Origin: Candidatus Sphingomonas excrementigallinarum
GTDB lineage: Bacteria; Pseudomonadota; Alphaproteobacteria; Sphingomonadales; Sphingomonadaceae
Length of the DNA: 64,000 bases
Direction of reading: 5' to 3'
NCBI GenBank assembly: GCA_019112965.1
Contig: DXIH01000037.1
Span: 35,566 to 99,565, forward strand
This document shows positions 11,890 through 26,041 of the stretch, one piece after another. Position 1 is the first letter of the stretch; every line of letters begins with the position of its first letter. The position numbers and the translations under genes were made by a program. The notes below the pieces were generated by a model. It saw only the letters and a list, made by a program, of their open reading frames with translations, made no database searches and was not told the DNA's origin.

Positions 11890-14551
11890 CGTCCACTCCT
11901 TGCCAGACTCGGGCTACCTCCTGCCGCGTCGCCTCCAGCGTGGCAACCACCGTCGGCCAGTCCGGCAGGCCCATGGCGCGCGCGATCAGCGGGCGGGTCG
12001 GCTCGGGCGGCTCCTGTCCATCGGGCACCAGCAGGCGGAAGGACACGAGCGCCTGGGTCAGCACATCATGCGCCTGCGCCATGGTCGACGGCATCAGCCC
12101 CTCGGCCACCAGCGCGCCGATCGCCCGGCCCAGATCGGGGTCGAAGCCGATCCGGTGGACCAACTGCGTGCGGTGCACCGCGAACTCCAGATCGACCAGA
12201 CCGCCGGGAAGCAGCTTGACGTCGAGCGGCCCCTGCGGCGGCTTGTGCCGCGCCATCTCCGCGCGCATCTCGCCCGCCTCGGCCGCCACGTCACGCGCGG
12301 GCCGGTTGCCGTTCAGCACATCGGCGACGATCGCGGCCACCGCCGCGCGCGCGTCCGCCGAGCCGAAGATGGGACGGGCGCGGGTCAATGCCATGTGTTC
12401 CCAGGTCCAGGCGTCTTCGCGCTGATATCTCGCGAAACTCTCGACGGAAACCACCAGCGGCCCCTGCGTGCCCGAGGGTCGCAACCGCGTGTCGACCGGA
12501 TAGAGCGGCCCCGCCTGGGTCGGCACCGACAGCGCCGCCGTCACCCGCTGCGCCAGCCGGTTGTAATAGAGCGTCGCCCCCAGCGGCTTGGGCCCATCGG
12601 ACTCGGCGGCGAAATCGCCGGTGAACAGATAGACGAGATCAAGGTCGGAGGCATGAGTCAGCGCCGCGCCGCCCATCCGCCCCAGCGCCAGGATGACCAG
12701 CTCGCTATCCGGCACGCGGCCATGCGCCGCGACGAATTGATCGACCGTCGCCTGCGCCAGCACGCCGACCGCCGCTTCGGCGACGCGGGCATAGCCGCCC
12801 GCCACCTCCAGCGGATCGGCCCGCCCCGCGACGATCTGCGCGCCCAAGGCAAAGCGCAGTTCACCGACAACGCGACGAACGTGATCGAGCCGGTCCTGAT
12901 AGTCCTGCCCGCTTTCGCCGCCGCGCATCGCGCGTTCGAGGAATGCGACGGCGGGCAGCGGCTCAAAGGCGGAGGCGTCGATCAGCCCGTCGAGCAGCGC
13001 CGGACGCCGCGCCAGCTCGGCCGCCAGGGGTGCGGCATGGCTGAGGATCGCGACGGTCAGGCTGGCGAGCCCCGGTCGCGCCTCCAGCAGGCGGAAGATG
13101 TTGATCGCACTCGTCATCCGCTCGAACAGCGAATCGAGCTTCAAGATGGCGGCATCGGGGTCGGGCGCGTCGGCCAGCGCTTCGACCAGCGTGGGCAGCA
13201 CCGCGTCCAGCGCCTCGCGTGCCGCCGGGCTGCGCAGCGCGGCATAGTCGCCGCCGCGCCATGCCGCGATCCGCCGCGCCGCCGCCTCGACGTCGCGCAA
13301 GCCCGCCGCCGCCAGCCGCGCGTTCAGGAGGACCGGATCGTGCGGCAGGCGGGGCCGTTCGTCCGCGTCGAGCGCATCGTAGAAGCGCCCGACCCGTTCG
13401 GTGACGGGGGCGAGCATATCGATCAGCGCCTCGCCATCCACCAGTCCGTGGAGCCGCGCCACCCGGTCCAGCCCCTCGCCCATCGGCAGTTGATGGGTCT
13501 GGCGATCGTCGATCATCTGCACCCGATGCTCGATCGTGCGCAACAGGACATAGGCACTGGTCAGCGCCGCCGCCTGCTCCGCATCGATCCGCCCCGCCTC
13601 GGCCAGTTTCGCCAGCGCGTCACGGGTGGCGGGCGCCCGCAGTGCGGGATCGCGTCCGCCATGGATCAACTGGTGGATCTGCGCGAAAAACTCGATCTCG
13701 CGAATGCCGCCGCGACCGCGCTTCAGGTCATAGCCCGGCCCCATGGCCTGTCCCTGCGCATGATGGTCGCGAATGCGCCGGGTCAGGTCGCGAATCTCGC
13801 CGACCGCGCCGAAGTCCAGCGCGCGCCGCCACACGAACGGGCGGATCGCGTCGAGGAAGCGCTGGCCCAGCGCCAGATCCCCCGCCGCCGCCCGCGCCCG
13901 GATAAAGGCCGCCCGCTCCCAGGTCAGCGCCTGGCTTTCGTAATAGGCGATCGCCCCTTCGACGGGAATCGCGATCGGGGTCGCCTCTGGGGAAGGCCGC
14001 AACCGCAGGTCGACACGCAGCACATAGCCATCGCCGTCGCGCGCCTGCAGCAGTTCGACCACCCGCTTGCCGATCCGCACCGCCGCATCCTCCGGCTCCT
14101 CGCGCGGGCGGCGGGGCAGCGTCTTCGGATCGAAGATCAGGATCGGATCGATGTCGGACGAATAGTTGAGTTCGCGACTGCCCTGCTTGCCCAGCGCGAT
14201 GGCGGCGAAACCGACCGGCTCGGCCCCCGGCGTCCGCTCCTCGATCGCGGCGCGGATCGCACGGTCGAGCGATCGGTCGGCGAAGTCGGTCAGCCGGTGC
14301 GTCACCTCGGTCAGGTCATACAGGCCCGCCAGATCGCCCAGCGCCACGGTAAGCGCCTGCGCGCGCCGTTCACGCCGCAACCGGGTGCCGACGGGTAGCT
14401 CCTCCGCCACATGGGGCGGCGCGAGCAACTCGCCCGCCAGCGCCGCCGCCTCGATCTCCGGTTCACGGTCGAGCAGCATCGCCAGGAAGGACGAATGCCG
14501 ACGCGCACGGGCAACGGCGTCGGGCAGGGCGCAAGGGGACGGGCTATTCAT
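11876..14551 (-). CDS. glnE: Glutamine synthetase adenylyltransferase / deadenylylase
   Basis: Bifunctional nitrogen-control enzyme of 891 residues that adds AMP to and removes AMP from glutamine synthetase. It has the two-domain GlnE architecture: an N-terminal deadenylylase nucleotidyltransferase domain with GKQGSRELNYSSDID (about 121-135), a linker with GRGGIREIEFFAQ, and a C-terminal adenylylase domain with LGRMGGAALTHASDLDLVYLF. Length is close to the usual 900-950. Its 3' end overlaps bcp. Confidence 0.95.
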   Translation of the reverse strand: MNSPSPCALPDAVARARRHSSFLAMLLDREPEIEAAALAGELLAPPHVAEELPVGTRLRRERRAQALTVALGDLAGLYDLTEVTHRLTDFADRSLDRAIRAAIEERTPGAEPVGFAAIALGKQGSRELNYSSDIDPILIFDPKTLPRRPREEPEDAAVRIGKRVVELLQARDGDGYVLRVDLRLRPSPEATPIAIPVEGAIAYYESQALTWERAAFIRARAAAGDLALGQRFLDAIRPFVWRRALDFGAVGEIRDLTRRIRDHHAQGQAMGPGYDLKRGRGGIREIEFFAQIHQLIHGGRDPALRAPATRDALAKLAEAGRIDAEQAAALTSAYVLLRTIEHRVQMIDDRQTHQLPMGEGLDRVARLHGLVDGEALIDMLAPVTERVGRFYDALDADERPRLPHDPVLLNARLAAAGLRDVEAAARRIAAWRGGDYAALRSPAAREALDAVLPTLVEALADAPDPDAAILKLDSLFERMTSAINIFRLLEARPGLASLTVAILSHAAPLAAELARRPALLDGLIDASAFEPLPAVAFLERAMRGGESGQDYQDRLDHVRRVVGELRFALGAQIVAGRADPLEVAGGYARVAEAAVGVLAQATVDQFVAAHGRVPDSELVILALGRMGGAALTHASDLDLVYLFTGDFAAESDGPKPLGATLYYNRLAQRVTAALSVPTQAGPLYPVDTRLRPSGTQGPLVVSVESFARYQREDAWTWEHMALTRARPIFGSADARAAVAAIVADVLNGNRPARDVAAEAGEMRAEMARHKPPQGPLDVKLLPGGLVDLEFAVHRTQLVHRIGFDPDLGRAIGALVAEGLMPSTMAQAHDVLTQALVSFRLLVPDGQEPPEPTRPLIARAMGLPDWPTVVATLEATRQEVARVWQGVDDAAG

Positions 14552-14661
14552 AAGCCCGCTTCTACTCTGCAGTGAGCCTGAGAAGAAACTCTTTCCAGCA
14601 GGTTAAGAAAAAGCAATTCAGATCATTTGCAACTTGTCAAGACGCGATCAGTTATGTTGCC

Positions 14662-14829
14662 ATGATGAGCACCGAATCCGGGACCAGCGATATCCGTATC
14701 GTCCGCGCGCCGCAGCGCACGGACGATATCGGCTGCGCGCTCCGCTCGGCCTATTCCCGGCCGGTGCGGTTGCCGGATCATTGGGTGCGGTTGCTGGCAC
14801 GGCTGGATCGGCGTTCACCACACTCCTGA
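14662..14829 (+). CDS. NepR-like small protein (possible second anti-sigma factor)
   Basis: A 55-residue ORF (ATG at 14662 or 14665). Its centre reads IGCALRSAYSRPVRLPDHW followed by VRLLARLD. This follows the NepR pattern (IGxxLRxxY...PDxx..LLxxLD) and resembles the nepR product at 17960 (SALRQAYQKTVDERIPDEM, LLSKLD), with two residues fewer between Tyr and Pro. NepR proteins sequester the EcfG sigma factor and are released by phosphorylated PhyR. The location 1.1 kb from ecfG fits that role. No GGAAC promoter was found upstream. The assignment rests on a short motif only. Confidence 0.55.
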   Translation: MMSTESGTSDIRIVRAPQRTDDIGCALRSAYSRPVRLPDHWVRLLARLDRRSPHS

Positions 14830-14833
14830 GGGA

Positions 14834-15838
14834 CTATCGCGGCTGGCCGGGTGGGCAGCGACCATAGGTTTGATCCATTCCGGCCAGATAGCCTGCCACA
14901 GGCGCCAGGCCGACGTCCGCACGCAGCCGGTCGACGGCCTTTTCATCCTCAAGAGGCTTCGGCACGCGCTTGCCGTTGTCACACGTTGCCTGCGTCGCAT
15001 AACGCTGCTTGCCCGTGATCTTCAGCATCACGCGGTCATACAGATAGGCATAGTCGCCTTTCGCAACCTCCCCCTTCACCATGAGCGGCTCCATCAAGCG
15101 CAAGGATGAGAGTTGGAAGGCCGGATCGGCATCCGCATGTTGCACCAGCAGCCAAGCCTGTTCGGCGGCATCCTCGCCGATCTCGGAGCGCTTCGGCCAA
15201 CCCTGCTTCGCAACCAAAGCCTTGAGCCACTCAGTGTTATCATGATCCTCGACGGCAGCCGCCAACAATAGCCGCGATACGATCACCGCCTGGACGTCAT
15301 CGGAAACAGCGGGCGCGCCCGCCATGTCCCCTTCGCCCCAACCCGCACCTACCCGCAGCATCTGCTCGCCGAGGGGACGGGCGATCAGAATGTCATGCAA
15401 TTTTGGCGTCTTGGCTGCGCCCATGGCCTTGGCCACTTTGACCGCCATCAGATAGGCGTCGGCGATCGGCGCGGCCTTGTCGACCGAGCGCTGAAATGCG
15501 TCAAAGCTCGTCCAGTGGTGCGCGTCGGGCGCCGTTGCTACTTGCGAGCAAAGGGGATTACGACTGGTGGTGTTAATCATTTTCGGATCGGCGACACCCA
15601 GAGCGCGAAGCTCAACCCGGGACTCCGCCAAGTCATCCCGGTAGCAGGCGATCAGCCATTCCCCGATCTGCTTGTCCTGTGCCCTCTCTTCCGGCGTCGC
15701 GTCCGGAAAGCGCCCCTTCATTCACCTGTAATCGCCCGGATCGAAGCGATCCCCCTTGATATAGGGTTTCAGGACGTCCGGGACCGGCGGCGTGGCCGCT
15801 GTCAGCAGAAAGGCGAGGATCAGGGACAGCACGCGCAT
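14834..15838 (-). pseudogene. DUF6624-like secreted protein broken by an in-frame TGA
   Basis: Two segments lie in one frame. An N-terminal part from ATG 15838 encodes a signal peptide (MRVLSLILAFLLTAATPPVP) and ends at a TGA at 15722-15724. An ATG immediately follows at 15721, and the frame then continues for 295 residues to 14834. The junction reads FDPGDYR-stop-MKGRFPDATPEER; a Trp codon (TGG) at the stop would give one continuous 334-residue exported protein. Either this is a recent nonsense mutation or a sequencing error, or translation restarts at 15721 and makes an unexported protein. The family is recognised only tentatively (DUF6624 type); function unknown. Confidence 0.65.
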
Positions 15839-15891
15839 GACGGGATCGGATAAGGTCACGGCATCACTGTCAAGCCGGTGTCTCTCAATAC

Positions 15892-15925
15892 AAAAAAGCC
15901 GCCCCGGTCAGAACCGGGACGGCTA
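15892..15925 (-). terminator. Rho-independent terminator of ecfG
   Basis: On the minus strand, GCCGTCCCGG and CCGGGGCGGC pair around a short TTCTGA loop and are followed by six T. It lies about 28 bases after the ecfG stop. Confidence 0.85.
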
Positions 15926-15952
15926 TTTATTAACGCCAAGAAGTAGAAGCGT

Positions 15953-16600
15953 TTACCGCCCGCCGCTCAACTGGTCGACATCACCCATGATGCTGTCGAG
16001 CGCCGTCTTGCTGCTGTCCGTTTCATGCTCGCGACGCGAGGGCAGCGAACCGTCGGTCAGGATCGCTTCCAGCGCGACGCGACCGCGCGCCACGCGGCTC
16101 TTGATCGTGCCGACTGCGACATTGCAGATTTCGGCCGCTTCCTCATAGGCGAAGCCCCCCGCACCGACCAGAATCAGCGCCTCGCGCTGCGGCTGCGGCA
16201 GGTGCATCAAGGCACGCTGCATATCGCCAAGCTCGACATGGCGGTCCTGGCTCGCCGGAGCCGCCAGGATGCGGTCGGCGACCAGATCATCCCACTCGCC
16301 CTTGAAGCGCGCGCGACGCATCTGCGACAGATACAGGTTGCGCAGGATGATGAAGGTCCAGGCACGCATGTTCGTGCCCGCCTGAAAACGCTTGCGCGCC
16401 GCCCAGGCCTTCAGAAGCGTCTCCTGCACCAGGTCATCGGCCAGATCGCGGCTGCCCGACAGAGAGCGTCCAAAGGCGCGCAGATGGGGAATGACGCGCG
16501 CCAGTTCCGCCTTGAACTCGGAATCGGGAAGCGCGACATGCTCGACCGGCGCTTCAGGTGCGTCGTCCTCGAATTCGTCCCGCGTCAGTGGCTGCGTCAT
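15953..16600 (-). CDS. ecfG: EcfG-type RNA polymerase sigma factor (general stress response)
   Basis: ECF sigma factor of 215 residues. Region 2 spans about 31-100 (LADDLVQETLLKAW, FIILRNLYLSQMRR) and region 4 about 128-178 (LPQPQREALILVGAGGFAYEEAA, VAVGTIKSRVARGR). These sequences and the company of phyR and nepR identify the ECF15/EcfG sigma that directs the alphaproteobacterial general stress response. It recognises GGAAC-N16/17-GTT promoters; two perfect examples occur nearby (17832 and 19748). It is held by NepR in unstressed cells. The C-terminal 35 residues form a short extension of no known motif. Confidence 0.92.
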   Translation of the reverse strand: MTQPLTRDEFEDDAPEAPVEHVALPDSEFKAELARVIPHLRAFGRSLSGSRDLADDLVQETLLKAWAARKRFQAGTNMRAWTFIILRNLYLSQMRRARFKGEWDDLVADRILAAPASQDRHVELGDMQRALMHLPQPQREALILVGAGGFAYEEAAEICNVAVGTIKSRVARGRVALEAILTDGSLPSRREHETDSSKTALDSIMGDVDQLSGGR

Positions 16601-16706
16601 GAAAATCCGATCATCGGAAACGGCCGACCCAACGACCGTTTCGAAACATAAGAGGCCGACTCCGAAATAGCCAGCCGTCCCAATAGGCTAATCGCAAAGC
16701 CCCGTG

Positions 16707-16844
16707 TCAGCGCAGCACCAGAAAGGCGAAGATCGCGATCACGAGCACTAGCGAGATGGGCAGGACGTACCGCGTGACATGCGGCGTCGACCCTGCCCGA
16801 GCGTCCTCTTTGGCGACATGAATGGGTTCATTGGAATCAGCCAT
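16707..16844 (-). CDS. 45-residue single-pass membrane protein between ecfG and phyR
   Basis: ORF from ATG 16844 to TGA 16707, reading MADSNEPIHVAKEDARAGST and then a juxtamembrane segment and one hydrophobic helix (about residues 25-44, YVLPISLVLVIAIFAFLVL) ending in Arg. GAGGTAG five bases upstream is a good ribosome site. It lies on the ecfG/phyR strand in the roughly 300-base gap between them. No family is recognised. The position suggests a link with the stress response, perhaps membrane sensing, but this is inference. Confidence 0.6.
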   Translation of the reverse strand: MADSNEPIHVAKEDARAGSTPHVTRYVLPISLVLVIAIFAFLVLR

Positions 16845-16895
16845 GTCTACCTCAACGCCTCTCAACCGTTTTGGGTCCGTAACTGTAGGTCTTTC

Positions 16896-17696
16896 TTACT
16901 CGGCCGGGACCGTGCTCTGGTCGAAGAACAGCGCCTGGCTGATCGCGGCCTTCACCGTCGACCGCTGGAACGGCTTGGTGATGAGGAAGGTCGGCTCCGG
17001 GCGCTCGCCGGTCAGCAGACGCTCGGGGAAGGCGGTGATGAAGATCACCGGAACCTCGAACTCGGCCAGGATGTCCTTGACCGCATCGATGCCCGAGCTG
17101 TCGTCGGCCAGCTGGATGTCCGCCAGCACCAGGCCGGGGCGGTCCTCCATGGCCAGCGCCACGGCTTCGTCGCGGGTCACGGCGACGCCGGTGACTTCAT
17201 GGCCCAGGTCGCGCACGATCGTCTCGATATCCATCGCGATGATCGGCTCGTCCTCGATGATGAGCACGCGGGCGCGGGTCTGCTTCTCGATCTCGGCCAG
17301 CGCCTCGGAGACGAGATTCTCGACCTCGCTCGGCTCCACGTCGATCAGATACGCCGCGTCCTCGGGCGTGAAGCCCTCCATGGCCGTCAGTAGCAACGCC
17401 TGGCGCGACAGTGGCGTCATCCGGGCGAGACGCGCACGGGCCAGCCCTTCATTGCCGTCGGCGTCGATGCCGTCATTGTCCAGCTCGTCATAATTGGCCG
17501 ACGACCAGATGCCCTGGAACATCCGATAGAGGCCCAGCCGCGGATCGACGTCGCGCGGAAACTGGTCCGGGGCCGCGACGATCGCCTCCAGCGTGGCGCG
17601 GACATATTTGTCGCCGTGCATCTGGCTGCCGGTCAGGGCCCGGCCATAGCGCCGCAGGAAGGGAAGATGGGGCGCAAGCTGCTGTCCAAGCGACAT
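16896..17696 (-). CDS. phyR: PhyR, response regulator / anti-anti-sigma factor
   Basis: Master activator of the general stress response, 266 residues. The N-terminal part (about 1-135) is a sigma-factor-like domain (LPFLRRYGRALTGSQMHGD, MTPLSRQALLLTAMEGFTPEDAA). The C-terminal part (about 142-260) is a receiver domain with the acidic pair in IIEDE, the phosphoacceptor Asp193 in VLADIQLAD, Thr in FITAFPE and Lys in FLITKPF. When phosphorylated, PhyR binds NepR through the sigma-like domain and frees EcfG. It is divergent from nepR, with a 263-base intergenic region between them. Confidence 0.95.
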   Translation of the reverse strand: MSLGQQLAPHLPFLRRYGRALTGSQMHGDKYVRATLEAIVAAPDQFPRDVDPRLGLYRMFQGIWSSANYDELDNDGIDADGNEGLARARLARMTPLSRQALLLTAMEGFTPEDAAYLIDVEPSEVENLVSEALAEIEKQTRARVLIIEDEPIIAMDIETIVRDLGHEVTGVAVTRDEAVALAMEDRPGLVLADIQLADDSSGIDAVKDILAEFEVPVIFITAFPERLLTGERPEPTFLITKPFQRSTVKAAISQALFFDQSTVPAE

Positions 17697-17831
17697 GGGT
17701 AATAATCACTCCCTGAGGTATTCGCGGACACCTGATGTGCTGGCCCCCGCGCATGTTTTCAATGGCGTTTCCCGAAATCCCCTTGTGGCACACGTCATGC
17801 ACGTACCCTTCGGATTTTTCGTATCGCATCG

Positions 17832-17856
17832 GGAACCAACAAGATCGAATTTGGTT
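17832..17856 (+). promoter_or_regulatory. EcfG-dependent promoter of nepR
   Basis: GGAAC at 17832-17836 and GTT at 17854-17856 with a 17-base spacer, which is the consensus of alphaproteobacterial EcfG sigma factors. It lies about 105 bases upstream of the nepR start on the same strand, so nepR and the following kinase gene would be under autoregulation. A matching site for phyR on the other strand was looked for and not found. Confidence 0.8.
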
Positions 17857-17959
17857 TCATCGCCACATCAACTATGGCCCAGGCATGACGCCAATCGGCA
17901 GTGCCCCATGGCCGCCATTGCGTCGGTTGCCCCGCTAGTGGGTCGTGCAGGGGGATATT

Positions 17960-18115
17960 TTGAGTTTGGGCAACAAGACGAAGAAGACGCCGTCCTCCAC
18001 GCCCGAAAAGGGCGGTCAGAAAGATGCGGGCTCGGCACTTCGCCAGGCGTATCAGAAGACCGTGGACGAGCGGATCCCCGATGAGATGCTTGACCTTCTC
18101 AGCAAGCTGGACTGA
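17960..18115 (+). CDS. nepR: NepR anti-sigma factor
   Basis: A 51-codon ORF with a TTG start at 17960, preceded by GGGGG at the right distance for a ribosome site. The N-terminal part is polar and probably disordered (GNKTKKTPSSTPEKGGQKD). The core AGSALRQAYQKTVDERIPDEM and DLLSKLD is the NepR helix pair that grips EcfG or phospho-PhyR. It lies 12 bases upstream of the kinase gene and opposite phyR, which is the classical gene order. No ATG is available in frame upstream of the core, so the non-ATG start is needed. Confidence 0.88.
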   Translation: MSLGNKTKKTPSSTPEKGGQKDAGSALRQAYQKTVDERIPDEMLDLLSKLD

Positions 18116-18127
18116 ACGTCCGGCTGA

Positions 18128-19714
18128 ATGGCCAGCGCTCCTCCCCAAGACATCGAGGCTCCCGAACGCCTCCGCCCTCCCCCGCCCCGTCTCGCAACGG
18201 GCGCGAAGCTCGTGCTCGTGCTGGGCAGCACCCTGTTCATCCTGGCCGCCATCGCGGTGTTCGCCACGCTTCAGACCACGCGGCTGGCCGACAGCGAGGC
18301 GAGCGGGCGGCTTCGCATAGCCGCCAACGAGGATGCCCGCGCCATCGCCTCCGAGTTGATGGGCGATATGACCGCGCTGCGCGTCGCCGTACGCGCGATG
18401 GGCCAGGACCCGATGGACATGCCGAGTTGCGCCCGCGCCCAGGGCGTATTCGCGCAACAGTCGGTGACCGGCGCACGTTTCCTCATCACCGATCGGTCGG
18501 GCAAGACGCTGTGCGGAGATCCACTGCCCGCCGCACTGCCGGTGCCGGTCGAAGGGTCGCCGATCGGCGCCGACATATTGCCCGGCAAGGGGCTGGTCCT
18601 GTCGATCGCCAGCCAGGACGGCCGCGCCCAGGCACGCGCCTTCTTCCCCTTGCCCTTCCTCCAGTCGCTGACCGACCAGAACGCTCCCGCCAGCCCGATC
18701 GAGTCGGTGCTGGAGCTGGATGGCGAGTTGCTGCCGCTTCACCAGCTGTCGCATCGGGGGGCGCTGGATCGCATGAAGTCGATGCGCACCGAATTGGGTA
18801 TCGCCGGACTGGTCCTGCGCACCTCCACGCCCAGCGCGCCGATCACCTCGTCGCTGATCGTCGCGCTCGCGCTGCCGCTGCTGATGTGGCTGGCCGCCGT
18901 GGTGCTGGGCTGGTTCATCGTCGATCGGCTGCTGATCCGCCCCTTGCGTCGGTTGCGGACCATCGTCGCGACCTATCAGCCGGGCGAGGTGCTGGATATT
19001 TCTGGGGTCGAGGCCGCCCCCGCCCAGGAAATCCGCGATCTGGCCGACACGTTCGAGGCGATCACCCAGACCGTCGCCACGCACGAGGCGGGGCTGGCCG
19101 AGGGACTGGTGCGCCAGACCAAGCTGACCCGCGAGGTCCACCACCGGGTCAAGAACAACCTGCAGGTCATCTCCAGCCTCATCAACTTTCATGCGCGCGG
19201 GGCGACCGGGCCGGAGGCGATGGCCGCATATTCCTCGATCCAGCGGCGGGTCGACGCGCTGGCGGTCGTCCATCGGCATCACTTCGCCGAACTGGAGGAA
19301 AATCGCGGCCTGAACCTGCGCACGATGATCGGCGAGCTGGCCGCCAATATCCGCGCCACCGCGCCGGAGAGCGTGTCGGGCATCGGTATCTCGCTCGACG
19401 TCGCGCCGCTGCTGGTCAACCAGGACGTGGCGGTCGCCGTTGCCTTCCTGGTCACCGAGACGATCGAGCTGGCGATGAACTGCGATCCCACGGCGCAGAT
19501 CCGCGTTGCGATCAAGCCCGCCGAACAGGAAGGCCGCGCGGTCGTCCGGGTCGTCACCCGCGCGCTGGTCGAGACCGACGAACTGCGCCACCTGATCGGC
19601 AAGCGCTATGGCCGGGTGATGGAGGGGCTGGCGCGACAGCTTCGTGCGCCGCTGCACCATGATCCGCTGGTCGGTGCCTATGAGATCGCCATCCCGATCG
19701 TCGGACGCGACTGA
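18128..19714 (+). CDS. phyP: PhyP-like HisKA_2 histidine kinase/phosphatase
   Basis: Membrane sensor of 528 residues: TM helix about 26-49, a periplasmic sensor part about 50-240, a second TM about 243-265, a HAMP-like linker, a HisKA_2 dimerisation domain with EVHHRVKNNLQVISS (His339), and a C-terminal ATPase-like domain. In that last domain the N-box is poor (TETIELAMN) and no clear DxG or GxG boxes are visible, so ATP binding may be lost. PhyP of Sphingomonas sp. Fr1 is known as a negative regulator that acts on PhyR phosphorylation; the location and degeneracy fit a phosphatase role. It is probably cotranscribed with nepR. Confidence 0.85.
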   Translation: MASAPPQDIEAPERLRPPPPRLATGAKLVLVLGSTLFILAAIAVFATLQTTRLADSEASGRLRIAANEDARAIASELMGDMTALRVAVRAMGQDPMDMPSCARAQGVFAQQSVTGARFLITDRSGKTLCGDPLPAALPVPVEGSPIGADILPGKGLVLSIASQDGRAQARAFFPLPFLQSLTDQNAPASPIESVLELDGELLPLHQLSHRGALDRMKSMRTELGIAGLVLRTSTPSAPITSSLIVALALPLLMWLAAVVLGWFIVDRLLIRPLRRLRTIVATYQPGEVLDISGVEAAPAQEIRDLADTFEAITQTVATHEAGLAEGLVRQTKLTREVHHRVKNNLQVISSLINFHARGATGPEAMAAYSSIQRRVDALAVVHRHHFAELEENRGLNLRTMIGELAANIRATAPESVSGIGISLDVAPLLVNQDVAVAVAFLVTETIELAMNCDPTAQIRVAIKPAEQEGRAVVRVVTRALVETDELRHLIGKRYGRVMEGLARQLRAPLHHDPLVGAYEIAIPIVGRD

Positions 19715-19747
19715 ATCCGAAAAAGATTCGCGACGGCGAAAAAGACG

Positions 19748-19772
19748 GGAACCCCTGCCTTGGCAGTGTGTT
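19748..19772 (+). promoter_or_regulatory. EcfG-dependent promoter ahead of a candidate small RNA
   Basis: GGAAC at 19748-19752 and GTT at 19770-19772 with a 17-base spacer, identical in layout to the nepR promoter. Transcription would start near 19779. No ORF with a ribosome site follows before the strong terminator at 19825-19881. Confidence 0.75.
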
Positions 19773-19778
19773 CTGCTC

Positions 19779-19881
19779 TTCGGATAGCGAACTTATGCCC
19801 CCCCGCTCTCGCTGTCCAAGCCATAGGCCTGGAAGCGTCCACCCTCCCCCCCCGGTGACGCTTCCAGGCCTTAATCTTTTT
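19779..19881 (+). ncRNA. Candidate stress-induced small RNA with a C-rich hairpin loop
   Basis: Predicted transcript of about 100 nt between an EcfG promoter and an intrinsic terminator. The 5' part includes a run of seven C at 19798-19804. The 3' part is a perfect 15-bp stem (19825-19839 with 19857-19871) with a loop carrying CTCCCCCCCC (19844-19853), then a T-rich tail. A C-rich single-stranded loop could pair with G-rich Shine-Dalgarno regions. In Caulobacter the EcfG-type sigma SigT controls a small RNA, GsrN, that uses a C-rich loop; this may be a functional counterpart. Homology cannot be judged by eye. Start and size are inferred. Confidence 0.6.
19825..19881 (+). terminator. Strong intrinsic terminator, also 3' hairpin of the small RNA
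   Basis: A 15-bp perfect stem, AGGCCTGGAAGCGTC with GACGCTTCCAGGCCT, is followed by TAATCTTTTT. It can end transcripts from both the phyP gene (stop at 19714) and the 19748 promoter. Confidence 0.85.
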
Positions 19882-19934
19882 CGGGGCCAATTCTCTCCAC
19901 GACATCCTTCAGCCACATCGTCCGTGACAGACGC

Positions 19935-19959
19935 GGAACGATTGCAGGCGTGACGCATT
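19935..19959 (+). promoter_or_regulatory. Possible EcfG-type promoter of the entericidin-like gene
   Basis: GGAAC at 19935-19939, a 17-base spacer, then ATT instead of GTT at 19957-19959. A start near 19967 would leave a 26-base leader with AGGAGA before the ATG at 19993. One base departs from consensus, so the call is weak. Confidence 0.35.
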
Positions 19960-19992
19960 GATCGGCAACGGATTTCATCGAGGAGACAGAGA

Positions 19993-20127
19993 ATGCGTAA
20001 GCTCATGGGTCTGGCGATCGTCGCCGGTGCGCTGCTGGTCAGCGCGTGCAACACCGTCGAGGGCGTCGGCCGCGACGTGAGCTCGGCGGGCAACACGGTC
20101 GCCAAGACGGCGAACGACGCCAAGTAA
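19993..20127 (+). CDS. Entericidin A/B-like small lipoprotein
   Basis: A 44-residue lipoprotein precursor: MRKLMGLAIVAGALLVSACN has a signal peptide with lipobox VSAC (Cys19). The mature part, NTVEGVGRDVSSAGNTVAKT, shows the entericidin family pattern (CNTxxGxGxDxxxxGxxxxxxA). The family gives tiny outer-membrane-associated lipoproteins, often stress-induced; the exact role is unclear. AGGAGACAG just upstream is a good ribosome site. The gene follows the stress response locus and has a possible EcfG promoter and its own terminator. Confidence 0.85.
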   Translation: MRKLMGLAIVAGALLVSACNTVEGVGRDVSSAGNTVAKTANDAK

Positions 20128-20153
20128 GCCTTCACCCGGCTGACGATTGCGAA

Positions 20154-20190
20154 AGGGCTCCGACGGGTTTCCGTCGGGGCCCTTTTCCGT
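20154..20190 (+). terminator. Terminator after the entericidin-like gene
   Basis: GGGCTCCGACGG and CCGTCGGGGCCC pair around GTTT and are followed by TTTT. It lies about 30 bases after the stop. Confidence 0.85.
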
Positions 20191-20218
20191 GTTTGGCGTG
20201 AATGGGTGGAGTTCCCGA

Positions 20219-20366
20219 GACCATGATGACGTTGCGTTGAGCCAAGGCAAGCCCCTCCCCTTCAGGGGAGGGGTTGGGGTGGGGCCTCGCCACGGGCTGC
20301 ACGCTTGCGGAGGCGCCCCACCCCCGGCCCCTCCCCTGAAGGGGAGGGGTGAGTTAATCTCATGTC
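20219..20366. repeat. Palindromic repeat, type A, full copy
   Basis: Composite of two palindromes CTCCCCTTCAGGGGAGGGG (about 20251-20274) and CCCCTCCCCTGAAGGGGAG (about 20329-20350). They surround GGGGTGGGGC and GCCCCACCCC arms and a small central part. The flanks carry ATGATGACG and the GAGTT/ATCTCATG type sequence seen again at 19-97 and 63751. The region around it (20191-20461) contains no other recognisable gene. Confidence 0.8.
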
Positions 20367-20461
20367 ATCATGCTTTAGGCGGTCAAGCGAGGCATCTGCT
20401 CTCGCCCAGTTGCGAGCATTTCAGGCTGGCCTCTCGAAGAAGGCCAACATAACGTCCTGCG

Positions 20462-20836
20462 GTGTTCATCGAGCGAGCCTATGTCGAGCGGGAGAGCCTG
20501 TCGGATCGCAATCTGCAGCGACTGCGCGCTGGCTTTGCCGATCAGGTGCAACGTTACGAGTACGCCATCCGCAACTACCCGCCGGATCGGATGGAAAAGC
20601 ACGGGCGGCCTTTTCTAAACAAGCTACGCGAAAAAGTAGCTATAGTTGATGCTCTAATTACCAATCGGATGGATGTTCGCCGACGCCCAGTTGGTGACTG
20701 CGTTCCCGAAGCGTCCTGCCACCACGATCTTGATTGGCTGCTTATCGCCGCCGCACTGGCGGTTGCCGCCGTCGTTGGTTTCGATAGCCGCGCCGCGATC
20801 AACGCGATCATCAGCCGCTGGCACAACGGCAGCTAA
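20462..20836 (+). CDS. Hypothetical protein with C-terminal membrane helix
   Basis: Open frame of 124 residues from a GTG; no clear ribosome site. The N-terminal two thirds are charged and helical (LSDRNLQRLRAGFADQVQRY). Residues of about 90-106 (DWLLIAAALAVAAVVGF) form one hydrophobic helix. Part of it (about 20615-20670) has visibly lower GC than the surroundings. No family is recognised, and no other candidate gene was seen between 20366 and 21030. It may be real, a remnant, or a chance ORF. Confidence 0.35.
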   Translation: MFIERAYVERESLSDRNLQRLRAGFADQVQRYEYAIRNYPPDRMEKHGRPFLNKLREKVAIVDALITNRMDVRRRPVGDCVPEASCHHDLDWLLIAAALAVAAVVGFDSRAAINAIISRWHNGS

Positions 20837-20976
20837 CCATCCTTTCCGGACATTACGATAGCCGACAGCGTTAAATTCGCCCGTGGCTTTCGACAGCGCT
20901 CATGCCGGACGGCGGTCGATCCCGGGCCTTTTCTTCCTGACCACTGCCGGAGGCCAAGCCCCACCCTCTGCCCAAC

Positions 20977-21008
20977 AAAAAGGGCCTCGGCTTCCACCGA
21001 GACCCTCC
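20977..21008 (-). terminator. Terminator of the tatABC operon
   Basis: On the minus strand GGGTCTCGG and CCGAGGCCC pair around TGGAAG, followed by TTTTTG. It lies about 25 bases after the tatC stop. Confidence 0.85.
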
Positions 21009-21030
21009 CCAATCCAAAACCGTATCGCGA

Positions 21031-21816
21031 TCAGGCAACCGCGTCGGCATCCTCTTCCACCGCCGCCTGCTTCGACCGGGCCCGTTCGGTGAACCAGATG
21101 CCGATGATCGCCAACTCGTACAGAATGATGAGAGGCACTGCGAGCAGCACCTGCGACATCAGGTCGGGCGGGGTCAGCACCGCCGCGATCGCGGTGGCCG
21201 CGACGATGGCGTAGCGCCGCGCACCGATCAGCTGCTTGCGGGTGACGATCCCCGCCCGCTCCAGCAGCATCAGCAGCACCGGCAGCAGGAAGGCCAGGCC
21301 GAAGGCGAACAGGAACTGCATGACGAAGGACAGGTAATTGCCGATCGCGGGCAGCGCCTCTCGCTTCACACCACCGACCATGCCGTCAAAGCCGAGCAGG
21401 AAGTGCAGCGCCATCGGGATGGCGATATAATAGGCCATCGCCGCCCCCATCAGGAACAGCACCGGCGTCGCCAGCAGGAAGGGCAGCAGCGCCTTCTTTT
21501 CCTTGCGGTACAGGCCCGGTGCGACGAACTGCCACAACTGATTGGCGATCACCGGGAAGGAGATCATCATCGCGGCGAAGAACGATACCTTTACCTGGAC
21601 GAAGAACGCCTCGAAAATCTGGGTATAGACCAGCGTCCCCTGCCCCGCCCGGAGCAGCGGCTTGGCAAGGAAGCCGAAGATCGATTCCGAAAAATACATC
21701 GACACGCCAAAGGCCAGGCCGATGGCGATGATGCAGTAGAGCAGCCGCCGCCGCAGCTCGATCAGATGCTCCAGCAGGGGCGCGCGGCTGGCGTCGATCT
21801 CGTCATGGTCGCTCAC
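21031..21816 (-). CDS. tatC: Sec-independent translocase subunit TatC
   Basis: Polytopic core of the twin-arginine translocon, 261 residues, with six predicted membrane helices. The N-terminus HLIELRRRLLYCI is the conserved twin-arginine signal recognition region. The segment FPVIANQLWQFVAPGLYRKEKK and the helix preceding FLLGFD are family hallmarks. Its start overlaps the tatB stop by ATGA, so it is the last gene of tatABC. The C-terminal tail after the last helix is short and charged. Confidence 0.94.
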   Translation of the reverse strand: MSDHDEIDASRAPLLEHLIELRRRLLYCIIAIGLAFGVSMYFSESIFGFLAKPLLRAGQGTLVYTQIFEAFFVQVKVSFFAAMMISFPVIANQLWQFVAPGLYRKEKKALLPFLLATPVLFLMGAAMAYYIAIPMALHFLLGFDGMVGGVKREALPAIGNYLSFVMQFLFAFGLAFLLPVLLMLLERAGIVTRKQLIGARRYAIVAATAIAAVLTPPDLMSQVLLAVPLIILYELAIIGIWFTERARSKQAAVEEDADAVA

Positions 21817-22292
21817 GATGCCGCCCCCTCGGTGCCGCGCGACGGATGCTCGCTGGCGGGTGCAGGTGCGACGACGGGCTTTTCGACCATCACCGGCCGA
21901 TCGCTATGATCCGCATGGGCATCGCCCCGGTCGTGTGCGTGGGGGTCGTGTGCGTGCGCATCACGATGGGGTGCATCGGATGCGGTGTCGTCGGGCAATG
22001 CCGCCGGGGTCGCCGCCGCCGGGGTCGCTTCGACGTCGACATGCGGGGGCGTATCGGCGGCATGTTCGCGCATGATCCGCTCATTCTCGGCGGCCCAGCG
22101 CTTTTCCATTTCCTCCAGCTCGGCCTCCCGGACCATATTGTCGAAGCCTTGGCGGAACTGGCGCGTGACGCCGCGCGCCTTGCCCACCCAATAGCCGACG
22201 ACACGCATCGCCTTGGGCAGGTCCTTGGGACCGATCACGACCAGCGCGACGATGGCGACCAGCAGGAATTCGCTGGAATCGATGTTGAACAT
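21813..22292 (-). CDS. tatB: Sec-independent translocase subunit TatB
   Basis: Tat receptor component of 159 residues: a short N-terminal membrane helix (about 1-21, SSEFLLVAIVALVVIGPKDLP), the hinge GPKDLPKAMR, an amphipathic helix (to about 70) and a long disordered tail. The tail is rich in His, Asp, Ala and Pro (HRDAHAHDPHAHD), which is unusual and might bind metal. Middle gene of tatABC. Confidence 0.9.
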   Translation of the reverse strand: MFNIDSSEFLLVAIVALVVIGPKDLPKAMRVVGYWVGKARGVTRQFRQGFDNMVREAELEEMEKRWAAENERIMREHAADTPPHVDVEATPAAATPAALPDDTASDAPHRDAHAHDPHAHDRGDAHADHSDRPVMVEKPVVAPAPASEHPSRGTEGAAS

Positions 22293-22324
22293 GAAAGTCC
22301 GGTGCTGGGTCTAAACGAGCCGGA

Positions 22325-22561
22325 TCAGCGATCGTCGCGCACGCGCTCGCCGTCGCGATCGAAGGCGGGCTCGGCCGACTTCTGCGCCTCGATCCGGGCC
22401 GACGGCTTGGCGGGCGTCTCGTCTTCCTCGGCCATGCCCTTCTTAAAGTTCTTCACGCCCTTGGCGACATCACCCATCAGGTTGGAGAAACGGCCGCCGC
22501 CAAGCAGAAGGATCGCGACGATCGCGAGAACGACAAGATGGATCGGGCTAAAGCTGCCCAT
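22325..22561 (-). CDS. tatA: Sec-independent translocase subunit TatA
   Basis: Pore-forming Tat component of 78 residues: an N-terminal membrane helix (SPIHLVVLAIVAILLLGGG), the FG-type hinge region replaced by GRFSNL, an amphipathic helix with DVAKGVKNFKKGM, and a charged tail. A promoter-like TATAAATT lies just upstream on the minus strand (about 22577). First gene of tatABC; 32 bases to tatB. Confidence 0.9.
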   Translation of the reverse strand: MGSFSPIHLVVLAIVAILLLGGGRFSNLMGDVAKGVKNFKKGMAEEDETPAKPSARIEAQKSAEPAFDRDGERVRDDR

Positions 22562-22716
22562 GGCACGTCTCCTGGAATTTATAATCTATCTAGGCTTTGG
22601 CATCGCCAGCGGCAATGGGCCAGCGGCAATGGTCGAGCGATGACATGGCCCCTGATCGGGGGATGCAGAAGCCGTGGCCCCGCATTGTGACGTGGCCATG
22701 ACGCAAAGGAAAGCGC

Positions 22717-23331
22717 TCAATCGCCGTCTTCCCCGTCCGAATGCGCTTCACCATCGGGCATATCCTCGTCGCCCAACCGCTCCAGCGCGAGATCGACCGG
22801 ATCGAGCAGCCCGGCGGCGCGCAGATCCTCCAGTCCCGGCAGGTCACGGCGGCTGGTCAGCCCGAAATGCTGGAGAAAGGCGGGCGTCGTCGCATAGATG
22901 AGCGGCCTGCCCGGCACCTCGCGCCGCCCGGCGGGGCGCACCCACCCGGCCTCCATCAACACGTCCAGCGTCCCCTTCGAGATGGCGACGCCGCGAATCG
23001 CCTCGATCTCGGCGCGGCTGACGGGTTCGTGATAGGCGATGATCGCGAGGGTCTCGATTGCGGCGCGCGACAGGCGGCGGGCTTCCTCGCGGTCGCGGCG
23101 CAGCAGATGGGCGAGATCGGGCGCGGTCTGGAAATGCCAGCGGTCGCCGCGTCGGACCAGCGTGATGCCCCGCCCGCGATACTGCGCCTCCAGTTGCTCC
23201 AACGCGCTGCGAATGTCGCCGCCGCCCCTGCCGACGCCGACATGCGCGCGGATCGAGTCCACGCTTATCGGATCGGGCGAGGCGAACAGCACCGCCTCGA
23301 CGGCACGGACGGTCGGATCGATGTCGGTCAT
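22717..23331 (-). CDS. scpB: Segregation and condensation protein B
   Basis: Subunit of the SMC-ScpAB condensin complex that compacts and segregates chromosomes; 204 residues with tandem winged-helix domains. The segments VEAVLFASPDPIS, TLAIIAYHEPVSRAEIEAIRGV and GRPLIYATTPAFLQHFGL are classic ScpB. The start at 23331 overlaps the scpA stop (ATGA); the longer open frame is a shadow of scpA. An acidic C-terminal tail follows the second winged helix. Confidence 0.93.
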   Translation of the reverse strand: MTDIDPTVRAVEAVLFASPDPISVDSIRAHVGVGRGGGDIRSALEQLEAQYRGRGITLVRRGDRWHFQTAPDLAHLLRRDREEARRLSRAAIETLAIIAYHEPVSRAEIEAIRGVAISKGTLDVLMEAGWVRPAGRREVPGRPLIYATTPAFLQHFGLTSRRDLPGLEDLRAAGLLDPVDLALERLGDEDMPDGEAHSDGEDGD

Positions 23332-24053
23332 GGCGCGGGCTGACGGATCAGCAGCGGCGCGAAGGGGGCGGCCTGACGAAGTTCGACCTTGCCCTGTCGC
23401 GCGAGTTCGAGAATCGCAAGAAAACTCGATGCCAGCGCCGACCGCCGCAGTCGCTCGCTGCCCTCGGGGAGGAAGGTCTCGATCGCCGACCAGTCGATCC
23501 GGCTGCCGACCAGCATCGACACCCTCTCCAGCGCGGCCTCCAGCGTCATGACCTGCCGGTCGGCGACGACGTGCATGACCGGGCGGGTGCGCGCGTTGAT
23601 CCGGCCATAGGCGGAGATCAGGTCGTACAGCTCGGCCTGCCACATCGCCTTGCGCTGCACCGCCAGTCCTTCAGGCGCACCCCGCGGGAACACGTCGCGG
23701 CCCAGCCGGTCGCGCGCCATCAGCCGCGCACCGCATTCCCGCATCGCGGCCAGCCGTTCGAGCCGGAGTTGCAGGCGCAGCGCCATTTCCTCGGGGTCCG
23801 GCTCCTCCTCGGGCGGGCGAGGCAGCAGCAGGGAGGATTTGAGATAGGCGAGCCAGGCGGCCATCACCAGATAATCGGCGGCCAGTTCCAGCTGCATCCG
23901 CCCCGCCTTGTCGACGAAGCGCAGATATTGCTCGACCAGGGCCAGGATCGAAATCTGCCGCAGATCGACCTTTTGCGAGCGGGCCAGCGACAGCAACAGA
24001 TCGAGCGGCCCTTCCCACCCGTCCAGATCAAGCGTCAGCTGTTCCCCCGTCAT
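23328..24053 (-). CDS. scpA: Segregation and condensation protein A
   Basis: Kleisin subunit of the SMC-ScpAB complex, 241 residues. N-terminal DGWEGPLDLLLSLARSQKVD and ADYLVMAAWLAYLKSSLLLP are the ScpA signatures; the C-terminal winged helix includes SSFLAILELARQGKVEL. It is translationally coupled to scpB. The nagZ gene lies upstream, separated by a palindromic repeat. Confidence 0.93.
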   Translation of the reverse strand: MTGEQLTLDLDGWEGPLDLLLSLARSQKVDLRQISILALVEQYLRFVDKAGRMQLELAADYLVMAAWLAYLKSSLLLPRPPEEEPDPEEMALRLQLRLERLAAMRECGARLMARDRLGRDVFPRGAPEGLAVQRKAMWQAELYDLISAYGRINARTRPVMHVVADRQVMTLEAALERVSMLVGSRIDWSAIETFLPEGSERLRRSALASSFLAILELARQGKVELRQAAPFAPLLIRQPAP

Positions 24054-24145
24054 CCCTCGTTGCTTAGCGGCGATGATGCGGGATGGCGAGACGGCGCGTA
24101 ACAGGCGTCAAACCGATGGAGAGAAGAGATCGGCTTCTTCCAATT

Positions 24146-24284
24146 CCTCCCCATCTTCGATGGGGAGGGGGACCGCGCCCGCAGGGCGTGGTGGAGGGGC
24201 TTGGGCGCTCTGTCTCGCCCCTCCACCATCGCTGGCGCGATGGTCCCCCTCCCCAAGCTTGCTTGGGGAGGAATGGGGGCATTA
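24146..24284. repeat. Palindromic repeat, type B
   Basis: Left arm TTCCTCCCCATCTTCGATGGGGAGG, right arm CCTCCCCAAGCTTGCTTGGGGAGGA, each with its own variable hairpin tip. An inner palindrome ACCATCGCTGGCGCGATGGT lies before the right arm. The element separates nagZ from scpA. Confidence 0.75.
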
Positions 24285-24288
24285 CCTA

Positions 24289-25290
24289 TTACGCGAGCGC
24301 CAGCAGCGCGTCGCGGCGTGCGATCAGCTCGGCGAAATCGCCCTCGCCCGATCCGACGCTCGCCATCGCGCGGTCGAGACGGGCACGGGCGATATCGGTG
24401 ATCGGGGGCACGCGTCCGGCGATCTCGACCATCTCGTCCATGCGCGCCCAGCAATCGAGGACGAGATCGCATCCTGCCGCCAAAGCACCTGCGGCCTTTT
24501 CGCCCGCCGTGCCGCTCAGCGCCTTCATGTCGATATCGTCGGTCATCAAAAGGCCGTCGAAACCGATCCGCCCCCGGATGATCCGCTCGATCACGGTCGG
24601 CGACAGAGTGGCGGGGCGTTCGGCGTCCCAGGCCTCGAACAGGATATGGCTGGTCATGCCCATCGGGGCATCCGACAGCGTGATGAAGGGTTCCAGATCG
24701 ACTTCGAGTTCCGCTTCACCGGCGGTGACGGTAGGCATCAGGTGATGCGAGTCGACGAGCGCCCTGCCATGGCCCGGCATGTGCTTGATAACGCCGATCA
24801 CGCCCGCCGCCGCCAGCCCTTCCAGCATGGCACGCCCCAATGCGGCGACCTGCATCGGTTCGGTGCCATAGGCACGGCAGGCGATCGCCTCCGTCGTGTC
24901 GGCTTGCGCCACGTCGAGCAGCGGCGCGCAGTCGACGGTGATCCCGACCTCACGCAGCATCACGCCCAGCGCCTGGCCGTTGGCGCGCATCGCCTGGATC
25001 GCCGACATCGGCGCCTGCTCGTACAGCTTGGCGAAGACCGGCCCGGCCGGGAAAGCGGGCCATTCGGGCGGCCCCATGCGCGCGACACGGCCGCCTTCCT
25101 GATCGATCAGGATCGCCAGATCGTCCCGCCCCGCCAACTCCCGCAAGCTGTCGGTCAGGGCGCGGACCTGCGCCCGGTCGACGATGTTGCGCTTGAACAG
25201 GATATAGCCCGCCGGTTCGACCGAGGCGAAGAACGCCCGCTCGTCGGGGGTCATGACCGGGCCGGACAGGCCGAAAATGACGGGGATCAT
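24289..25290 (-). CDS. nagZ: Beta-N-acetylhexosaminidase (glycoside hydrolase 3)
   Basis: Cytoplasmic peptidoglycan-recycling enzyme that removes N-acetylglucosamine from anhydro-muropeptides; 333 residues. Visible motifs are DQEGGRVARM (63-72), the KHMPGHG signature with the acid/base His (169-175), DSHHLMP, and the nucleophile Asp251 in LLMTDDIDMKAL. The start at 25290 puts MIPVIFGLSG first, as in family members. It follows the SPOR protein gene. Confidence 0.92.
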   Translation of the reverse strand: MIPVIFGLSGPVMTPDERAFFASVEPAGYILFKRNIVDRAQVRALTDSLRELAGRDDLAILIDQEGGRVARMGPPEWPAFPAGPVFAKLYEQAPMSAIQAMRANGQALGVMLREVGITVDCAPLLDVAQADTTEAIACRAYGTEPMQVAALGRAMLEGLAAAGVIGVIKHMPGHGRALVDSHHLMPTVTAGEAELEVDLEPFITLSDAPMGMTSHILFEAWDAERPATLSPTVIERIIRGRIGFDGLLMTDDIDMKALSGTAGEKAAGALAAGCDLVLDCWARMDEMVEIAGRVPPITDIARARLDRAMASVGSGEGDFAELIARRDALLALA

Positions 25291-25300
25291 GATTGGGCGA

Positions 25301-26041
25301 TCAGCTGGCGACGAAGCAGCTCTCGCCCGCCACGCGCAGGCGGCCGCAGATGTCGGCGGCCTGGTTGGCCGATCCGGCATTCACGCGCAGGCGATAGAGG
25401 GTCTTGCCGTTCGAGGCGACCGGCTGGACCACCTTGCCCAGTGCGGCGACATAGGAGAAGCGCTTGGAGAAGCGGTCCCAGGCGGCGTTGGCCGATGACT
25501 CGCTGGGATAGGCACCCAGCTGGACCATCGCACCGCCAGCCGGAGCGGCAGCAGGCGCCCGCGCCGCCGCGACGGGTGCAGGTGCAACGAGCTTGCCGCC
25601 CGATTCCGGCACCTGCGCCACCGCGTTGCGGCCGCCATTGGGCTCGGCGGGCTTCTGCACGACGCGGGTGCCGTTCATCGGTGCCTCGGGCACGGCGCGC
25701 AGGTCGATCGCGCCGGTGCCGCCGGGCTTGCCCGCGCTGGTCGCGATGGCGGTGTTGCCCTCGCCCTTGACCTTCAGGCCGCCGGGATCGGCCGGACGGA
25801 CCTTATAGTCGCCCTCGGGCGCGGCGATCACCGCACCGTCGCCGTCCGCCGCCGCGCGGTTCGCCTGCCATTTGTAGAAGCCGAAGCCGATCGCTGCCAG
25901 GATGGCGAGGCCCAGAATGACCAGCGCCACGACCTTGCCGATGCCGACGCCCTCGGGCTCATCGGCCTCGACGGTTTCCAGCCAGGGCAGGCGATCCGCC
26001 TCGTCCAGATCCAGGGCTCGACCGTCCGTCTCGTTCGCCAT
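25301..26041 (-). CDS. SPOR-domain membrane protein
   Basis: A 246-residue inner-membrane protein: an acidic cytoplasmic N-terminus, one TM helix (about 34-56, GKVVALVILGLAILAAIGFG), a Pro/Ala/Gly-rich periplasmic linker, and a C-terminal SPOR domain (about 168-245, MVQLGAYPSESSANAAWDRF). SPOR domains bind denuded glycan strands at the septum. The ATG overlaps the argS stop by one base (TGATG). Likely a division-site protein. Confidence 0.85.
   Translation of the reverse strand: MANETDGRALDLDEADRLPWLETVEADEPEGVGIGKVVALVILGLAILAAIGFGFYKWQANRAAADGDGAVIAAPEGDYKVRPADPGGLKVKGEGNTAIATSAGKPGGTGAIDLRAVPEAPMNGTRVVQKPAEPNGGRNAVAQVPESGGKLVAPAPVAAARAPAAAPAGGAMVQLGAYPSESSANAAWDRFSKRFSYVAALGKVVQPVASNGKTLYRLRVNAGSANQAADICGRLRVAGESCFVAS

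Follow-up and report, generated by a model that had tools for sequence, protein, structure and literature searches.

Sphingomonads serve as a model for the PhyR-NepR-EcfG pathway, and the question raised by the locus described here is whether the stretch that separates two protein-coding genes of their general stress response locus, one for a histidine kinase and one for an entericidin-like protein, carries a further gene whose product is an RNA. The locus was followed through a window of 64,000 nucleotides from Candidatus Sphingomonas excrementigallinarum, by which is meant the whole stretch of DNA that was analysed, and through genomes of the genus, the family, the order and the class. The sphingomonad stress locus apparently includes a strongly conserved, unannotated gene for a small RNA (sRNA) of approximately 100 nt, as predicted from sequence.

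The predicted sRNA, of about 103 nt, occupies positions 19779..19881 of the forward strand, as defined by a covariance model, by its fold and by genus-wide conservation. On the same strand it is preceded by the gene of a HisKA_2/HWE histidine kinase (18128..19714; Pfam PF07568, 6e-18), presumably PhyT/PhyP-like, a name that is taken from its position and from the gene order in S. melonis Fr1, and it is followed by an entericidin-like gene (19993..20127, forward strand; Pfam PF08085, 4.5e-07), which has a separate EcfG-like box, GGAAC-N17-ATT, at 19935..19959 of the forward strand, 33 nt before its start. The tatC gene (21031..21816) lies 3' of the entericidin gene, and the interval between the two contains an ORF of 124 aa (20462-20836) without a Pfam match. 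On the far side of the kinase gene from the sRNA are found, both on the reverse strand, phyR (16896..17696; Pfam PhyR_sigma2, PhyR_sigma-like and Response_reg) and the gene of an ecfG-type sigma factor (15953..16600; Pfam Sigma70_r2 and r4_2), named ecfG as the neighbour of phyR. None of the ORFs in the gap between phyR and ecfG (16601-16895) was recognised as nepR; one of 52 aa (16707-16865, reverse strand) resembles a single-span membrane protein. The gap between phyR and the kinase gene holds a second GGAAC-N17-GTT box (17832-17856), resembling the box of S. melonis gene #1444 (GGAACCAAC...TTTGGTT). A scan of 14000-26000 for tRNA and tmRNA genes reported none. The window also contains a palindromic repeat, CCCCTCCCCTTCAGGGGAGGGG, at positions 36-57, 20252-20349 and 63778-63875; at two of these places it occurs in pairs with a spacing of 76 bases. 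It gives nine matches on both strands against zero expected, and a similar sequence adjoins three sites of the same genome with a run of six G (L185, L378, L386).

The EcfG motif of S. melonis Fr1 has been given as GGAAC-N17-20-GTT, and ecfG and phyR are genes #1447 and #1445 of that strain (PMC6599016). Gene #1442, annotated as 'Predicted small secreted protein', is listed in Table 1 of that paper with a GGAAC-N17-ATT box 30 bp upstream of the start; the gene is EcfG-dependent, with a log2 ratio of -4.7 (PMC6599016). Judging from gene order, #1442 would correspond to the entericidin gene and #1443 would encode the kinase PhyT, and both the number and the box of #1442 suggest that it neighbours the position of the sRNA. 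The main text of the Fr1 regulon paper (PMC6599016) does not contain the words sRNA, small RNA, non-coding or intergenic, nor do the words sRNA and small RNA occur in the main text of the regulon paper on S. granuli TFA; among open-licence full texts, no report of the sRNA described here was found.

The promoter ascribed to the sRNA, GGAAC-N17-GTT with the spacer CCCTGCCTTGGCAGTGT, is an exact match at 19748..19772 of the forward strand, as a first-pass annotation of this DNA had claimed. Taken by itself in the window, such a box is at chance level: exact GGAAC-N16-18-GTT is present at four sites in the 64 kb, against 2.68 expected in shuffles, and genome-wide the pattern has 134 sites, fewer than the 216 of its reverse. 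Its significance thus derives from position and from conservation in relatives, not from the count in the window. In all 30 genus loci fetched, GGAAC-N17-GTT lies 31 nt upstream of the model start, with a spacer sequence that varies, and the box was likewise detected in 35 of 37 copies of a more diverse set (described below), which shares with the genus loci one member, the window's own copy. The spacer is 17 nt in 33 of these copies and 18 nt in two, in a scan that allowed spacers of 14 to 20 nt and in which all matches were of 17 or 18; in a control limited to spacers of 16-17, the pattern was present in 114 of 20,500 random 60-mers from the diverse loci. The two diverse copies that have no exact box (L117, L125) show one-base departures, as judged by eye. 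Loss of promoter and C-rich loop in close relatives, which had been named beforehand as grounds for giving up the sRNA, was therefore not what these 30 and 37 copies displayed. The box, in addition, tracks the RNA and not the stress locus, since copies without nearby ecfG and phyR still keep it: in five loci (L104, L108, L102, L086, L089), tatC and the box are retained, although neither ecfG nor phyR is matched within 6 kb. It is very probable, on this sequence evidence, that the sRNA is driven by EcfG.

Folding of 19779-19881 with RNAfold predicts two hairpins, with an energy of -48.7 kcal/mol and a z-score of -8.67, none of 200 shuffles being as stable. Hairpin 1 (19782..19817, forward strand) has a loop around CTTATGCCCCCCCGCTCT, with seven consecutive C at 19798-19804, and hairpin 2 (19825..19871, forward strand) has the loop CTCCCCCCCC at 19844-19853; in the RNAfold structure the latter hairpin consists of 15 pairs, a one-base bulge and 3 further pairs that close a 10-nt loop, CUCCCCCCCC. 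Hairpin 2 probably doubles as the intrinsic terminator, and after it comes a U-rich tail, TTAATCTTTTT (19871..19881, forward strand), which from its sequence is an imperfect terminator tract; the tail is weak in some relatives, such as L025 and L030, and a simple terminator scan with a loop limit of 8 did not report hairpin 2 and its tail. The stem, loop and tail of the first-pass annotation correspond to hairpin 2, with its loop CTCCCCCCCC and U-rich tail, but hairpin 1 and its C7 loop had been overlooked. Both C-runs are predicted to be unpaired, except for a two-pair helix within loop 1 (G19-C28, C20-G27): C21-C26 are unpaired with a probability of at least 0.98, and C20 is mostly paired (0.23 unpaired).

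Conservation within the genus is close to complete, as a 278-bp query (19715-19992) matched 287 of 295 Sphingomonas genomes, the window's own included, and among the matches listed most span only query positions 56 to about 165, that is, 19770-19879, corresponding to the -10 element and the RNA. In the window, a covariance-model match covers 19779-19883 with 110 bits. A covariance model built from the genus (R1) identified the RNA in 131 of 397 genomes of the family, representing 35 of its 96 genera, and gave no match in 266 of the 397 under Infernal's stricter filters. The diverse set was drawn from representatives of the genera with a match, supplemented by some other loci, with 44 matches in 41 sources, of which 37 were kept after leaving out the weak L116, L118 and L119, the truncated L121 and matches on the opposite strand. 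In the model-fitted alignment of these 37 copies, both sides have changed in 27 of 29 pairs, including 9/9 pairs of the hairpin-1 stem and 18/18 pairs of hairpin 2, and the covariation score is 0.432, as opposed to 0.167 in shuffles (0/500), with a collapse of the signal in slid controls. A model-independent MAFFT alignment with an RNAalifold structure displays compensatory changes in 16 of 18 pairs and recovers the outer 9 pairs of hairpin 2.

Conservation is much stronger in hairpin 1 than in stem 2. The mean majority fraction is 0.92 in loop 1 and 0.90 in stem 1, and 0.77 in loop 2 and 0.70 in stem 2; the sequence CCCCCCGCT of hairpin 1 is present in 36 of the 37 diverse copies and CCCCCCGCTCTCGC in 27, and the seven invariant columns of the MAFFT alignment are all located in loop 1. 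Among 29 aligned genus copies, taken from the 30 fetched loci, the C-run of loop 1 has a length of 7 or 8 and that of loop 2 a length of 8 to 12. One genome (G516) has two copies, L122 and L123, the former with a different stem 1 but the same CCTTTTGCCCCCCCGCTCT and an EcfG box. Both L122 and, in G306, L150 are second copies at a distance from the first, and each of the two has an EcfG box to itself. The fixed bases that flank the C-run of loop 1 surpass what generic pairing with a G-run needs. As for the neighbourhood, ecfG and phyR matches were found no more than 6 kb from the RNA in 27 of 41 rows, the window and low-scoring rows included, a tatC match near the RNA in 34 and an entericidin match in 30 (within 6 kb). 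Selection on the RNA structure, conservation of the promoter and of the loop, and the gene neighbourhood can all be read from these sequences directly, and the RNA gene itself is almost certainly under selection.

The range of the RNA was explored with a second model (R2) in 38 genomes, namely 37 that had no match in the earlier search and the partial G111. A match at E up to 1 was obtained in 24, and eight loci from seven genomes were accepted by reading, each of which combines two C-rich hairpins with an EcfG box (L126, L127, L128, L150, L129, L132, L134 and L135); L126, L127, L132 and L134 are still beside tatC, and L135 (G318) is a divergent copy in which loop 2 contains CCTCCTCCC, the anti-Shine-Dalgarno (anti-SD) motif of alpha-r14 RNAs. 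In 27 phyR-containing stretches from 26 genomes, all of them earlier misses, the box followed by the RNA was present only in G306 (L219); in G228 and G203, which are among these stretches, the contig ends at the position expected for the RNA, so that these two count neither for nor against its presence. Outside the family, a search of the order (296 genomes) returned one weak match, G682, without an EcfG box, and R2 in 385 genomes of the class returned three matches, two of the genus itself and one weak, G938, again without the box. The covariance search across relatives that the first-pass annotation had called for thus placed the RNA in 35 of 96 family genera, with only weak, boxless matches beyond the family. 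A further locus, L147 (G335), consists of three consecutive hairpins with C-rich loops; the 150 nt that precede the match lack an EcfG box, and the locus is possibly a relative or an independent C-loop RNA.

Known RNAs offer several points of comparison. GsrN of Caulobacter crescentus is a SigT/EcfG-dependent sRNA whose 5' loop exposes six tandem C that recognise G-rich sites, the pairing with katG being supported by compensatory mutations (PMC5869019). Its homologues are typically located near ecfG-nepR-phyR, although not in C. crescentus itself; its blastn matches are confined to Caulobacteraceae, and for Erythrobacter litoralis the paper reports that a gsrN-like gene is not apparent (PMC5869019). 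As GsrN is described there, the sphingomonad RNA is similar to it in having an EcfG-type promoter, a length of approximately 100 nt, a C-run in the 5' loop (the C7 of loop 1, in the predicted fold), a 3' terminator hairpin and a position at the stress locus, in the 27 of 41 rows mentioned above. It is unlike GsrN in that the loop of its putative terminator hairpin is C-rich too and in that the flanks of loop 1 are nearly fixed. The first-pass annotation had offered it as the counterpart or an independent analogue of GsrN; it may be called GsrN-like by position, box and loop, and homology is not claimed. Predicted GsrN-like RNAs of Rhizobiaceae were assigned by transcription, an EcfG box and a position at the stress locus, and have an exposed C-rich 5' loop (PMC5869019); transcription aside, the sphingomonad RNA shares these features, as compared by published description.

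A second group of similar RNAs is formed by alpha-r14/NfeR1 and cuckoo/CcsR, whose hairpins also expose pyrimidine-rich loops of anti-SD type. The alpha-r14 RNAs are described as having three C-rich hairpins with variable stems and fixed loops that carry the motif CCUCCUCCC, anti-SD motifs serve as the seed of NfeR1, and the CcsR locus has an RpoHI/HII promoter and a DUF1127 partner (PMC10746234, PMC10253847). The sphingomonad RNA, in contrast to alpha-r14 as so described, has two hairpins, not three, and it differs from CcsR in its EcfG-type box and in its neighbours. None of the aligned copies, 29 from the genus and 37 from the diverse set, contains the motif CCUCCUCCC, which was found only in loop 2 of the divergent L135. 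CcsR also bears the CCUCCUCCC motif. Rfam release 15 gave no match at gathering score in the window, and six sub-threshold matches in 19600-20140 at E up to 10 (E 0.35 to 5.9), none of them sensible. We place the RNA in a sphingomonad sRNA family of its own, which we take to be a variant of the EcfG-controlled C-loop RNAs. The RpoE-dependent MicA and RybB of E. coli would be a parallel in regulatory logic, as an sRNA arm of an ECF sigma factor directed at the envelope, if cpoB (see below) proves to be a target; they belong to another sigma group, and homology is not claimed (PMC8103513, in its account of these RNAs).

These features are best accommodated by a trans-acting sRNA of the general stress response, transcribed by EcfG, whose C-rich loops would pair with G-rich mRNA starts, a reading that we consider probable. 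EcfG, once freed from its anti-sigma factor, would transcribe 19779 to about 19881 from GGAAC-N17-GTT, and the RNA would fold into two hairpins, the second of which would terminate transcription. Each hairpin would leave a run of C single-stranded, C7 for loop 1 and C8 for loop 2, and these runs may base-pair with G-rich sequence where translation of the target mRNAs begins, altering their translation or stability under stress. Transcription, dependence on EcfG, termination, base pairing and the existence of any target are all steps that we infer. Pairing with mRNA starts, in itself likely, is taken as the likeliest role of the loops because the C-run of GsrN recognises G-rich sites.

The search for targets, which the first-pass annotation had proposed for the C-rich loop, provided one lead. 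In a single genome, the complement of loop 1 with up to three mismatches yielded no convincing target among the sites inspected, and a longer loop-1 match is present at 566 sites, versus 414 for the reversed control (at most three mismatches), a modest excess. A run of six G (G6) before ATG was matched 242 times and its reverse 52 times, although the reverse is a poor control, since the frequencies of ATG and GTA differ; as the 48 G6 sites inspected were largely hand-picked (40, many for short spacing), no G6 enrichment is claimed. The lead concerns cpoB, whose product, a Tol-Pal accessory protein, has the TolA-binding trimerisation domain (PF16331), and whose start is preceded by a CACCGGGGGGTG-like sequence in many Sphingomonas (L370 and the cpoB loci L410-L439). 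In a sample of 30 hand-chosen genomes, from which L438 was dropped at a contig end, 25 of the remaining 29 have five G (G5) in the 22 nt before the start and 20 have G6 there, with L430 counted as negative (its start is probably misassigned, and G6 is nearby); the background for G5 is 0/43 ORFs of the window and 10/344 ORFs in L086-L125. Hairpin 2 contains CCCCCCGGTG, the complement of the cpoB sequence CACCGGGGGG, and the loop 2-cpoB duplex has an energy of -28.1, compared with a mean of -15.2 (sd 4.8, minimum -25.3) for 43 window ORFs, a comparison that is circular since cpoB was selected for its G-run. The loop 1-cpoB duplex, at -22.1, is inside the background of the same 43 ORFs (minimum -27.8).

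In other genera, G5 within 30 nt of the cpoB start was found in one of 15 that have the RNA and in none of 15 without a convincing copy, several of the starts being uncertain; in G302, which belongs to the latter, the G5 lies further upstream. Since the G-run is lost in other RNA-bearing genera, cpoB cannot account for the family-wide conservation, and it is at best a candidate target in Sphingomonas only, where the CACCGGGGGGTG-like run could instead be a cis element independent of the sRNA. A second candidate, a BBP2_2 porin, is ambiguous because start codons are uncertain: G5 is within 22 nt in 1 of 18 homologues, and 6 of the 18 have G6 somewhere in the interval from -40 to +12, compared with 0/43 window ORFs and 7/344 ORFs in L086-L125, the homologues being 23-39% identical and drawn from 29 matches (query start at most 16, L468 left out). 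The target prediction thus delivered the cpoB lead in Sphingomonas, which did not extend to other genera, and pairing with G-rich ribosome sites is something that we infer with this one genus-level lead.

A different division of labour between the loops is conceivable, although doubtful: loop 1 would be a nearly fixed element of about 17 nt with one dedicated, family-wide partner, a core RNA or protein, and loop 2 a fast-evolving seed for lineage-specific envelope mRNAs such as cpoB, a design that would be unlike that of GsrN. The near invariance of the loop-1 flanks, retained in L122 where stem 1 has been replaced, and the lack of a family-wide target in the cpoB search across genera also suit an RNA that does not pair with mRNA but serves a protein, either an RNA-binding protein or an RNase, as decoy or scaffold, the protein recognising the fixed loop CUUUUGCCCCCCCGCUCU. 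We know of no partner protein for CUUUUGCCCCCCCGCUCU, and we regard this possibility as unlikely, given that an exposed C-run is the seed of GsrN (PMC5869019) and that, in the same class, anti-SD motifs are the seed of NfeR1, as these RNAs are described. The element could also be simply the terminator of the kinase gene combined with an additional EcfG promoter and structured leader for the entericidin gene, with no free regulator, although termination does not require the nearly fixed loop 1. Such an arrangement would fit the location of the RNA exactly between the two genes and the entericidin match that follows it in 30 of 41 rows, but the entericidin gene has its own EcfG-like box at 19935, RNA and box are retained in loci that gave no entericidin match (L109, L087, L114, L111, L102), and both recur in the second copies L122 and L150, so that we hold this explanation to be improbable.

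Membership of the sphingomonad RNA in the cuckoo/CcsR or alpha-r14 (NfeR1) anti-SD groups is more improbable still. Its loops resemble an anti-SD sequence, its C-rich hairpins have variable stems as described for alpha-r14, and the divergent copy L135 has CCTCCTCCC in loop 2; this motif, however, is missing from 29/29 genus and 37/37 diverse aligned copies, there are two hairpins instead of three and no Rfam match, and the promoter and neighbours differ from those of the RpoH-driven, DUF1127-linked CcsR locus, as far as the latter is described. A short protein, or a dual-function RNA in which the frame ATG/TTG-CCC-CCC-CGC-TCT is translated, is scarcely credible. An ORF of 61 aa does span the region, and hairpin 1 of relatives can encode similar peptides, but the GTG start of the ORF precedes the predicted start of the transcript, the compensatory changes in the stems favour an RNA, and the variable length of the C-runs (7-8 and 8-12) shifts the frame. 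The range of the loop-2 run among the 29 genus copies, which displaces the frames downstream, leaves a protein gene unsupported, in agreement with the original view that the interval has no coding gene.

Under the preferred reading, that of a trans-acting, EcfG-transcribed sRNA, the gene, if transcribed as predicted, would constitute an unannotated post-transcriptional arm of the sphingomonad PhyR-NepR-EcfG stress response. If this is true, EcfG-controlled sRNAs with exposed C-runs would recur across the Alphaproteobacteria.
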